DNA from: an uncultured Oscillospiraceae bacterium
GTDB lineage: Bacteria; Bacillota; Clostridia; Oscillospirales; Acutalibacteraceae
Reading direction: 5' to 3'
Length of the DNA stretch: 39,494 nucleotides
Assembly (NCBI GenBank): GCA_949295415.1
Contig: CASFLA010000019.1
Coordinates: 1 to 39,494, forward strand
In this document: piece after piece, positions 25,920 to 28,928 of the stretch
Numbering within the stretch: the first letter of the stretch is position 1
Layout: every line of letters begins with the position of its first letter
Notes under the pieces: model-generated
Seen by the model: the letters and a program-made list of their open reading frames with translations, nothing else
The model's database searches: none
Told to the model about the DNA's origin: nothing
Translations under genes and position numbers: made by a program

Positions 25920-26903
25920 ACGACTACAAGAATAGGAATTTTAGGCTACGGCAATTTAGGCCGCGGCATTGAATGCGCAATAAATCAAAAAAACGATATG
26001 GAGCTTGTTGCGGTTTTTACCCGCAGAGACCCCAAAACCGTTAAAATTTTAAATAACAATGTCCCTGTTTACAGCATTGATGAGGTTTTAATCTTTAAAG
26101 AAAAAATAGATGTTCTTATCCTTTGCGGCGGCAGTGCAACCGATTTGCCCAAGCAAACTCCCGATTTTGCCGAGCATTTTACTGTTATTGACAGCTTTGA
26201 TACTCATGCAAAAATCCCCGAGCATTTCGCAAAGGTTGACTCTGCGGCTAAAAAAAGCGGAAACATCGCCGTTATTTCTTGCGGTTGGGACCCCGGTATG
26301 TTCTCATTAAACCGCCTGTATGCGAGCGCTATTTTGCCCGATGGCAAGGACTATACCTTCTGGGGCAAGGGCGTCAGCCAAGGCCATTCTGACGCTATCA
26401 GAAGAATAGAAGGCGTTATTGATGCTAAACAATATACCATTCCCGTTCAAAAAACATTGGAATCGGTTCGTCGCGGCGAAACCAAGGATTTCTCAACCAG
26501 AGAAAAGCATTTAAGAGAATGCTTTGTTGTTGCAGCAGATGATGCCGATAAAGCAAAAATTGAGCAGGAAATTAAAACCATGCCCAACTATTTTGCTGAT
26601 TACGATACAATAGTTCATTTTATTTCTTTAGAAGAATTAAAGCGCGACCATAGCGGTATTCCCCATGGTGGATTTGTTATCCGCTCGGGTCAAACCGGTT
26701 GGGAAAAGGAAAACAAACATATTATTGAATATAGCCTTAAGCTTGACTCCAACCCCGAGTTTACTGCAGGCGTTATTGTTGCGGCGGCAAGGGCAGCTTT
26801 TAGAATGAAGCAAAACGGTGAAACGGGCTGCAAAACAATGTTTGATATCCCGCCGAAATATTTAAGCCCATTATCCGACGAAGAGCTTTTGAAAATCCTA
26901 TAA
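25920..26903 (+). CDS. ddh: meso-Diaminopimelate D-dehydrogenase with an apparent ACG start
   Basis: The enzyme reductively aminates tetrahydrodipicolinate to meso-DAP with NADPH and ammonia in one step, feeding lysine and peptidoglycan synthesis. The first ATG of the frame (25998) would cut off the Rossmann nucleotide-binding motif. The frame upstream encodes TTRIGILGYGNLGRGIE, which is the family N-terminus. AAGGAG (25905-25910) sits 9 nt before ACG at 25920, where ATG is expected; from there the product is 327 residues, the family length. The rest is intact (CGWDPGMFSLNR, WGKGVSQGHSDAIRRI, HGGFVIRSG). Either a rare ACG start is used, the start is mutated, or the base is a sequence error. 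Confidence 0.93.
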   Translation, partial: TTTRIGILGYGNLGRGIECAINQKNDMELVAVFTRRDPKTVKILNNNVPVYSIDEVLIFKEKIDVLILCGGSATDLPKQTPDFAEHFTVIDSFDTHAKIPEHFAKVDSAAKKSGNIAVISCGWDPGMFSLNRLYASAILPDGKDYTFWGKGVSQGHSDAIRRIEGVIDAKQYTIPVQKTLESVRRGETKDFSTREKHLRECFVVAADDADKAKIEQEIKTMPNYFADYDTIVHFISLEELKRDHSGIPHGGFVIRSGQTGWEKENKHIIEYSLKLDSNPEFTAGVIVAAARAAFRMKQNGETGCKTMFDIPPKYLSPLSDEELLKIL

Positions 26904-27058
26904 TTAAAAACAACCAAGCAGCAAGGCACCCTCTGTAATAAAGGTGCCACACATCTTAAAACTAAACAACTTGTTTCAATAAACGGTGTAGCCTTCGCCC
27001 ACGCCCCATAGGGCAGTATTTCCTTAATAATGTGAAATTTCGGCACAATAATGCGTCA

Positions 27059-27097
27059 AAACCCATCAATACGCGCCAGCGTTATTGATGGGTTTTT
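27059..27097 (+). terminator. Strong terminator inside the inverted-repeat block
   Basis: Perfect 12-bp stem AACCCATCAATA/TATTGATGGGTT (27060-27071/27083-27094) followed by TTTTT on the plus strand. It could end the ddh transcript about 150 nt after the stop codon, or end a small RNA starting within the block. Confidence 0.75.
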
Positions 27098-27154
27098 CCT
27101 TTTCTTGCACTCGAAATTTTCATTTTAAGGTGCTTCGCAGTTTCGTAAGAACTA

Positions 27155-27233
27155 AAAATTCCCTGTATTTAAGCCATAAAACGCAGAAAGGCTGACGCCT
27201 TTTAAGGCTTTTGGCAACAATACAGGGGATTTT
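27155..27233 (+). repeat. Inverted pair enclosing smaller hairpins
   Basis: AAAATTCCCTGTATT (27155-27169) pairs with AATACAGGGGATTTT (27219-27233), with one G-U pair. Inside lie AAGCC/GGCTT (27170-27175 with about 27205) and AAAGGC-TGAC-GCCTTTT (27187-27203). This gives a branched fold within the larger inverted repeat. Confidence 0.45.
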
Positions 27234-27294
27234 GTTAGAGAAACAAATACTTCCCTATGGGACGTGGGCGTTTGGCTATGCCGTTTTTTTGCTT

Positions 27295-27336
27295 ACAAAA
27301 GTTCAAGGGAGACACTTCATTGCGAAGCGTCTCCCT
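27295..27336 (-). terminator. Terminator of trpB
   Basis: 13-bp stem AGGGAGACGCTTC/GAAGTGTCTCCCT (27336-27324/27318-27306), with one G-U pair on the minus strand, followed by TTGAACTTTTG. It lies 14 nt after the trpB stop. Confidence 0.7.
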
Positions 27337-27349
27337 TACCGGTTTCTTT

Positions 27350-28570
27350 TTATCTTATTCCGTAATTCTCAATAACGTAGTCCATATCCTTGTCGCCGCG
27401 GCCTGAAAGGTTGATAAGAATTGAACCGTGGTCCATTGTTTTGGCAAGCTTCATACCGAAAGCAACTGCGTGAGAGCTTTCAATAGCAGGGATAATTCCC
27501 TCAAGCCTTGCAAGCTTATAGAAAGCATCAATGGTTTCTTCGTCGTCGATAACATCATATTTAACTCTGCCTATATCACGCAGGAACGCATGCTCAGGAC
27601 CCGATGACGGGTAGTCAAGACCTGATGCCACCGAGTAAACGGGAGCGGGCTCGCCGTTTTCATCCTTGAGCATAATGCTGTTAAAGCCGTGCATAATGCC
27701 CTCGGTGCCGTATTTAAGGCTTGCTGCATGGTCTCCAAGCTTCGGTCCCTTACCCAAAGGCTCAATACCGTAAATATCAACGGGGTCATTTAAAAAGCCC
27801 GCAAAAAGACCTGCTGCATTACTTCCGCCGCCAACACAAGCAACAATTGAAGTAGGCAAATGACCGGTCATCTCAATAAACTGCTCCCTTGCTTCAATGC
27901 CGACAACGCTCTGGAAATCGCGCACCATCATAGGAAACGGATGAGGGCCAAGCACTGAGCCAATGCAATAAATAGAATCATTATATTCCTTGCTATATGC
28001 ATCAAATGCGGCATCAACCGCCTCTTTAAGGGTTTTAAGGCCGTGGGTTACCTCAATAACGTTAGCACCTAAAATCTTCATTCGGGCAACATTAGGAGCC
28101 TGCTTTTTAATATCAACAGAGCCCATATAAATATCGCACTCAAGGCCAAAATATGCAGCGGCGGTAGCCAAAGCAACACCATGCTGACCTGCACCTGTTT
28201 CAGCAATAACCTTTTTCTTGCCCATATATTTTGCAAGCAAGGCCTCACCCATACAGTGATTAAGCTTATGAGCACCCGAATGGTTCAAATCCTCTCTTTT
28301 TGCATAAAGCTGAACCTTGCCACCCAAAGCATCAGACAATCTCTCTAAATGGGTTACGGGAGTAGGTCTGCCCTGAAATTCTTTTCTTATTCTGCGAAGC
28401 TCGGCGATAAACTTACGCGATTGGCAGATTGAAAAATATGCCTCAGTAATCTCTGCCATAGCATTTTTAAGCTTATCGTCAATATAAACTCCGCCGTATT
28501 TGCCAAAATAACCATCCTTATCGGGATAGTTGTTAAAGTATGTTTCAAAATCAACATTGTTAAGTTTCAT
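27350..28570 (-). CDS. trpB: Tryptophan synthase beta chain
   Basis: 406 residues, TrpB1 type. It joins indole and serine to tryptophan with PLP. The PLP lysine is Lys102 in HSGAHKLNH; the phosphate-binding loop is [21 protein letters not shown] and GRGDKD are also intact. It stands alone: no trpA or other trp genes lie beside it. A tryptophan T-box leader and a terminator make it a monocistronic, Trp-controlled unit. A stand-alone TrpB suggests indole salvage, or pairing with TrpA encoded elsewhere. GAGGA lies about 7 nt before the ATG at 28570. Confidence 0.96.
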
Positions 28571-28659: not shown

Positions 28660-28915
28660 AAAATAAAAATCTTGCCCCAAAAATATGGGACAAGATTAAA
28701 AATCCTGCGGTACCACCCAAATTGATGAAAATTCATCCACTCACCTCATACTAACATATGAGCCACACTATAACGGGTGCGCCCCGTCGGTTACTACTTA
28801 CACAACGCTTTCGACCGCCCTCATAAGTCCATTCACCTGACATAACGCTGCCGCCATTCCACCACCGACGGCTCTCTTTAAGCTCACAACAGGCTACTAT
28901 TCTTAATCACAGGTT
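28660..28915 (-). promoter_or_regulatory. T-box riboswitch, tryptophan type, controlling trpB
   Basis: The minus strand carries the T-box sequence GGGTGGTACCGC (about 28719-28708) that binds the free ACCA end of uncharged tRNA. It is followed by a terminator stem (AATCTTGTCCC / GGGGCAAGATT, 28697-28687 / 28679-28669) and a T-rich tail. Upstream lies a stem I of about 100 nt with the AGAGAGCC region. In its specifier loop the context GAA-TGG-A places TGG (Trp) at 28831-28829. Low charged tRNA-Trp would stabilise the antiterminator and switch trpB on. The specifier is read by eye from context; it agrees with the gene controlled. Confidence 0.9.
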
Positions 28916-28928
28916 TTACTTTTAAAAA

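Follow-up and report, generated by a model that had tools for sequence, protein, structure and literature searches.

The window (the whole stretch of DNA that was analysed, 39,494 nucleotides) carries a block of nested inverted repeats at 26981-27290, between a diaminopimelate dehydrogenase gene (ddh; 25998-26903, + strand; PF16654, 3.6e-79) and trpB (27350-28570, - strand; gene name taken from the preliminary description, translation inspected). A separate near-perfect hairpin (AAGGGAGACACTTC / GAAGCGTCTCCCTT) lies at 27305-27337, outside the element described below, and is probably the terminator on the trpB side; a T-box leader (28683-28919, - strand; RF00230, 123.9 bits) is located directly upstream of trpB.

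Arms, a terminator-like hairpin and a second inverted pair with an inner hairpin were found where the preliminary description, which had given the block as 26921-27282, located them, the element proper being confined to 26996-27270. The density of pairing, claimed there as far above that of the surrounding intergenic DNA, was borne out as unusual by the folding energies: 26978-27292 folded as RNA reached -140.2 kcal/mol vs. -76.0 ± 5.2 in 100 dinucleotide shuffles (z -12.32), and folded as DNA it gave a z of -12.31 against shuffles. The long arms, 26981-27021 pairing with 27245-27286, had been taken as one repeat; each was found to consist of a host stem, the dinucleotide TT and a terminal inverted repeat of the element (26 nt, 92% complementary, 223 nt separating the arms), the outermost 13 bp per arm being host DNA. 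This outermost pairing is a host terminator divided by the insertion, which constitutes the main finding of this work and had been overlooked. No ORF of 80 aa or more was present inside the 275-bp element. The parts of the window copy are the following:

26981-26993, + strand: host intrinsic terminator, left arm (AAACGGTGTAGCC), pairing with 27274-27286 in the RNA and DNA folds
26994-26995, unstranded: predicted 2-bp target duplication, left copy (TT)
26996-27270, + strand: putative mobile element, 275 bp
26996-27021, + strand: left terminal inverted repeat, which is the 5' arm of helix P1 (15 of 25 P1 pairs changed on both sides)
27022-27055, + strand: helix P2, 5' arm (main-copy alignment mapped to the window)
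27059-27095, + strand: P3, terminator-like hairpin with a conserved apex, a bulged T and a stem of variable sequence (12 of 16 pairs changed on both sides)
27096-27130, + strand: helix P2, 3' arm (main-copy alignment mapped to the window)
27131-27139, + strand: P4, short hairpin TGC-NNN-GCA, the most conserved landmark of the family (from the alignment; basis of the pattern scan)
27140-27144, + strand: P5, 5' arm (GTTTC), with its partner at 27240-27244 (99.5% of cells paired, hardly any variation)
27149-27237, + strand: P6, arms 27149-27169 and 27219-27237, enclosing P6b and P7 (27186-27203) (inverted-repeat search and alignment)
27245-27270, + strand: right terminal inverted repeat, which is the 3' arm of P1 (inverted-repeat search and alignment)
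27271-27272, unstranded: predicted 2-bp target duplication, right copy (TT), from dinucleotide matching across copies
27274-27290, + strand: host terminator, right arm and T run (GGCTATGCCGTTTTTTT), with the stem portion at 27274-27286 (flank duplex and fold)

Copies in the genome and in related bacteria

The genome from which the window derives (G000) gave 34 BLAST matches to the 411-bp region and 26 matches to the end sequence (up to 3 mismatches), which were grouped by reading into about 19 places: six complete copies (274-276 bp), four halves at contig ends, two truncated copies, six internally deleted ones and one diverged member of a second subfamily (subfamily 2, contig C57). The five complete copies other than that of the window were 94.9-98.6% identical to it. 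BLAST matches were obtained in 8 of 40 relatives and in 30 of 250 genomes from the same GTDB family, the own genome being counted in both cases. The preliminary description had proposed a nucleotide search and named a single copy as the outcome that would speak against its candidates; the block was multicopy in its own genome and present in relatives, and a single copy is thus discarded.

At E <= 0.001, a covariance model of P2-P4 (R1, 29 rows) had matches in 23 of the 295 order genomes searched, under stricter filters with which some weak copies were possibly lost. The full architecture was confirmed by eye in six GTDB families (f1, f3, f4, f18, f19, and f24), mostly in terminator loops. The R1 match L297, in the sole f12 genome listed as a match (G035), was not confirmed by eye, and for L294, L301, L306-L308, and L311 the element was not visible in the stretch inspected, the locus lying off-centre at a contig end. 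The pattern scan of named genomes returned at least 111 stretches; among the 80 matches listed, all belonged to MAGs titled Clostridia or Oscillospiraceae, mostly from ruminant gut. No match to two patterns appeared in 2.9 million viral contigs, nor any in the plasmids searched. One partial match was obtained at the end of MT835515.1 (L340:1-420), an unverified phage-labelled scaffold from human faeces, where the copy is diverged and likewise sits in a terminator loop (GGAGCCGCAG / CTGCGGCTCC).

In the near-complete genome G115 (3 contigs, 2.0 Mb) the end search gave 24 matches: 10 pairs with a constant spacing of exactly 278 bp, each marking a complete copy, together with 2 mini forms and 2 further matches with 2 mismatches. 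Seven complete copies of this genome, all of 278 bp, were 97.1-99.6% identical, thus reflecting recent movement. One insertion site was common to related genomes (L184, L191, and L144), with flanks 84-88% identical, which indicated that some copies are old and inherited. The subfamily-2 copies of G002 (L073-L082) presented ends in at least three versions, with both arms changed together and interiors near-identical; an exchange of sequence between the arms may account for these versions.

Hairpins of about 27-62 bp that consist solely of the ends were located in terminator loops of several genomes. Such mini or deleted forms comprise L334 and L335 in G115, identical to each other and placed at unrelated loci, and copies on the G000 contigs C18, C23, C49, C52, C65, and C76; the two lone exact ends of the G115 end search corresponded to mini forms of about 30 bp. 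The junctions, read by eye, fell in short direct repeats (TTCCTTA in G000 C18, GCCCTAA in G115), and the mini forms therefore look like slippage deletions. They may also move by themselves.

Insertion sites at the tips of intrinsic terminators

Complete copies with near-identical interiors had flanks unrelated between copies and yet, as a tendency, complementary to each other within each copy, with an A run before the element and a T run after it. This pattern indicated an intrinsic terminator split at its tip. The own-flank duplex of the window copy reached -21.0 kcal/mol, and an equally good right flank was offered by none of the 52 other copies.

Pairing between flanks was quantified in two sets of copies. 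The first consisted of 53 copies (28 complete ones of the main subfamily, 6 deleted forms, and 19 of subfamily 2; copies cut by contig ends were excluded), where own-flank duplexes averaged -16.1 kcal/mol vs. -7.5 kcal/mol for all mismatched pairings (z -20.4), with a minimum of -9.8 in 20,000 permutations; own flanks were below -12 kcal/mol in 38 of the 53 copies as compared to 9.9% of mismatched pairings. The second set comprised 55 copies absent from the first. Of these, 27 came from the 80 rows of the pattern scan, the remaining rows being either already present in the first set (13) or unusable (40, of which 34 lay at contig or locus edges or were too short and 6 lacked ends where expected), whereas the other 28, taken from G115 and from further families of the order, were positioned with end motifs picked by hand. 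Values were very close to those of the first set (own flanks -16.3 vs. -7.5 kcal/mol when mismatched, z -21.5; 41/55 below -12 kcal/mol vs. 9.9%). A strong flank stem was missing in about a quarter of the copies (15/53 and 14/55, respectively). G098b and L323 lie beside a terminator hairpin and not in its loop, L323 just 3' of it, and flank pairing was weak in L329 and L330, both from G334.

The sites themselves were analysed in 89 copies (34 main or deleted ones from the first set and the 55 of the second, the 19 subfamily-2 copies being omitted). When the flanks were joined after removal of one dinucleotide, the junction fell in a hairpin loop at 79 of the 89 sites; the loop had 3, 4, or 5 nt in 58 of them, 4 nt being the most frequent size (27 sites). 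A strict criterion (a loop no larger than 8 nt, in a hairpin at least as stable as -12 kcal/mol) was passed by 59 of the 89 sites; among the controls it was passed by 2.5% of 4,000 joins of mismatched flanks and by 3.8% of 4,000 points chosen at random. The stronger T run among these 59 sites was on the + side of the element in 28 and on the other side in 20, with 11 ties. Insertion thus showed no clear preference of orientation relative to the terminator, and one shared orientation relative to transcription was ruled out by these counts.

The dinucleotide at the left of the element was the same as that at the right in 62 of the 89 copies (TT in 35, AA in 22, and TA in 5), 29 matches being expected under independence and 45 being the maximum in 20,000 shuffles. 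For GGGC-type copies with A before and T after, the boundary was shifted outwards by one base on each side ahead of the count, under a rule that uses those two bases only. Judged from the flanks of filled sites, the matching dinucleotides are a 2-bp target duplication. The dinucleotide varied within the own genome (TT in C19, AA in C16), and is therefore supplied by the target and not by the element.

Comparison of flanks revealed no empty site among the loci compared. Synteny of ddh and trpB gave none either, since their orthologues were on different contigs or far apart in the relatives where both were listed. The pre-existing terminator is therefore deduced from the joined flanks.

Conserved fold and search for a mobilising enzyme

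The main and the second subfamily displayed one common architecture (P1, P2, P3, P4, P5, and P6/P7), although their ends are unrelated. In 41 distinct main copies 94.7% of 4,548 cells were paired, and 47 of 111 pairs were changed on both sides vs. 31.3 ± 2.5 in shuffled alignments (0/500 shuffles as high). The covariation score was 0.258, as compared to 0.109 when shuffled and 0.048-0.073 when slid; these controls are not probabilities, because the structure was derived from the same alignment and its rows are related. Strong covariation is thus present, the lack of which had been named in the preliminary description as a further outcome against its candidates. The outer end was the least conserved sequence between genomes (pairwise identity 0.66 vs. 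0.93 for the inner AAGGNAGTATTT), and it drifts between genera while its pairing persists. A classical MITE, in contrast, retains its end sequence.

Covarying stems with drifting sequence raise the question of DNA-shape recognition. We tentatively suggest, as a possibility that we hold rather doubtful, that donor and target might both be recognised by shape, as a folded strand and a folded terminator tip, by an enzyme that is host-encoded or unlinked. Such an enzyme would explain why no gene-carrying element with the same ends was met. Equally tentative is the form that the donor might take under such recognition, a multi-hairpin whose stems are free to vary if paired and whose apices and joints are fixed.

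The same fold could be that of a structured or terminator-associated RNA which is maintained by selection, has multiplied as a repeat and acts at transcript 3' ends, for example in protection or processing. Its conservation across two subfamilies and several families and its compensated pairs are in agreement with this explanation, as is the excess of G-U over A-C cells in P6 (91 vs. 20) and P2 (97 vs. 18). However, this excess came mostly from a few fixed G-U columns, and P1 (22 vs. 35) and P3 (5 vs. 15) lacked such an RNA-strand signature. Selection on one RNA strand was therefore not consistently indicated, and, the direction being inconsistent, the G-U to A-C comparison is not used as proof for or against RNA. 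Copies face both ways with respect to the terminator, L188, L214, and L222 have lost internal hairpins, and no Rfam model, those of group II introns included, matched the element. An RNA role is accordingly unlikely; of the large structured RNA that had been put forward as one candidate for the block, the conserved fold stands but not the explanation, which is disfavoured by the two orientations and by P1 and P3.

Searches with the ends in the own genome, 16 relatives, and G115 revealed no autonomous partner with the same ends among the matches that were read. Besides complete copies, halves at contig ends, and mini forms, they gave scattered single matches with 1-2 mismatches. Autonomous partners of MITEs are often lost, and a partner is not essential for MITE status. 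Neither the IS630 (PF13358, DDE_3) nor the IS110 transposase (PF01548, DEDD) was detected in any of the 16 carrier genomes searched. When the 1,344 open frames lying no further than 3 kb from a copy were compared all against all, no mobility gene recurred; the largest cluster adjoins the element (median distance 85 bp) and is read as translation through it.

It is quite unlikely that the element is an ordinary MITE of a known palindrome-preferring IS family, such as IS1182/IS1272, whose autonomous copy is missing from the assemblies. IS1272 and TnSha1, of the IS1182 family, insert in hairpins, many of them intrinsic terminators, in both orientations and with no sequence specificity, in line with this explanation, but part or all of the stem-loop is deleted and no target duplication is formed, according to the extracts of PMC4923244 and PMC5678879 that we consulted; the sites of the element, in contrast, keep both arms and show the 2-bp duplication. 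The IS1182 transposase (PF13751) occurred in 8 of 40 genomes but in none of G000-G003, and the loci inspected (three for flanking repeats, ten for end motifs) had no ends in common with the element. The near-complete G115, with about 10 recent copies, contained no long element with the same ends. This explanation is thus already weakened.

Less likely still is a REP-like palindrome mobilised by a single-strand transposase of the RAYT type, for which donor and target would both be folded DNA. Donor and target are both hairpins, and Y1 proteins were found in 7 of 16 carriers and in 3 of 10 genomes without a known copy; two of these proteins are RAYT-like, at L352:1456-2031 (- strand) in G115 and at L351:1420-1941 (+ strand) in G002, with NF047646 scores below cut-off (4e-18 for the G115 protein, which also matched PDB 4er8 at 4.7e-5). 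On the other hand, no Y1 match was obtained in 9 of the 16 carriers, G000, G001, and G020 among them, and the distance of about 2.3 kb between the G115 gene and an element copy is not striking. Profile R1 gave no element copy in the Y1 loci submitted to it; the eleven loci searched yielded two matches, both in L303 itself. The target-derived dinucleotide argues against Y1-type single-strand insertion, whose chemistry, to our knowledge, would not be expected to give matching dinucleotides dictated by the target, and also against an IS110-like one, where the core dinucleotide is fixed. No convincing mobiliser was obtained among the Y1/RAYT-like, IS1182, IS630, or IS110 families, and no link between the RAYT-like proteins and the element was found.

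That the outer stem is a hypervariable end of the element, the apparent target being an artefact of boundary choice, is highly improbable: the terminal repeat runs on into the stem with hardly a gap and a true empty site was not found, but outer stems were unrelated between copies of one genome with 95-98% identical interiors, they carry A and T tracts and restore loops of 3-5 nt, and solo mini forms show the same pattern.

Proposed insertion and comparison with known systems

We consider it very probable that the block represents a copy of a MITE-like, non-autonomous element which inserts at the tips of intrinsic terminators with both host arms kept. An enzyme supplied in trans would cut twice, the cuts being offset by 2 bp, within an A/T dinucleotide in the centre of the terminator palindrome, that is, in the loop of a terminator hairpin or cruciform. 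The double-stranded element would be joined there in either orientation, and fill-in would produce the TT, AA, or TA duplication. Both host arms would be retained and the inverted ends of the element would pair, thus lengthening the stem, so that the T run would still come after the hairpin. Since the host stem and P1 stack in the predicted fold, terminator activity is probably kept. The terminator site would thereby be a safe haven, and later internal deletions would reduce copies to hairpins of about 30-60 bp in the terminator loop.

The element offers a clear and countable case of a mobile element at one functional signal whose two arms are apparently left in place. The occurrence of relatives in like sites across an order of gut bacteria suggests a landing rule permitting spread without gene breakage; landing at terminator tips would be a way to spread without harming genes, and would explain the tolerance of many copies in repeat-rich gut Clostridia. 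If the enzyme were found, it would constitute a natural tool inserting at terminators. Any large structured RNA called in these genomes should first be compared with this repeat.

The other candidate of the preliminary description, a MITE-like repeat, held up. As in MITEs, the element is short and devoid of coding genes, has terminal inverted repeats, and is multicopy and dispersed, with matching 2-bp flanks; the MITE attribute that was not found is an autonomous partner IS sharing its ends, whether in the own genome or in a relative. The TA duplication of IS630/Tc1-mariner elements was seen in only 5 of the 89 sites. The palindromic repeats recall REP/RAYT systems, with their hairpin-reading transposase, and RAYT-like proteins occur in some carrier genomes, but REPs are of 20-40 bp and a link between protein and element was not found.

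Bacterial MITEs such as RUP, Correia, ERIC, Nezha, and QMITE are likewise short, geneless, multicopy, folded, and intergenic repeats with terminal inverted repeats (PMC10969869, PMC3049150). Their targets are described as AT-rich intergenic or mixed, and targeting of terminator loops is not described in the consulted parts of that MITE review and pneumococcal repeat paper (PMC10969869, PMC3049150); the element differs further in that its inner fold is better conserved than its ends, and in having no partner IS that shares those ends. The SPRITE repeat of Streptococcus pneumoniae is tied to intrinsic terminators and to gene 3' ends (PMC3049150, extract), although it resembles a terminator whereas the element sits inside an existing one. 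Group IIC introns insert with stem-loops of terminators or attC sites as landmarks (PMC7923331, extract), but they are retroelement ribozymes, placed mostly beside the stem-loop, in contrast with the terminal inverted repeats and 2-bp duplications found here. As far as the extracts of PMC4923244 and PMC5678879 go, the nearest published behaviour is that of TnSha1/IS1272, which carry a transposase, whereas the element is geneless, keeps both arms, has a 2-bp duplication and lies at the loop. In view of these likenesses and differences it was filed as MITE-like rather than assigned to an IS family. Our literature searches, the sole basis on which we regard the family as unpublished, returned no description of it. 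On that basis the target rule, the terminator loop, is regarded as new, and the fold is unusually conserved.
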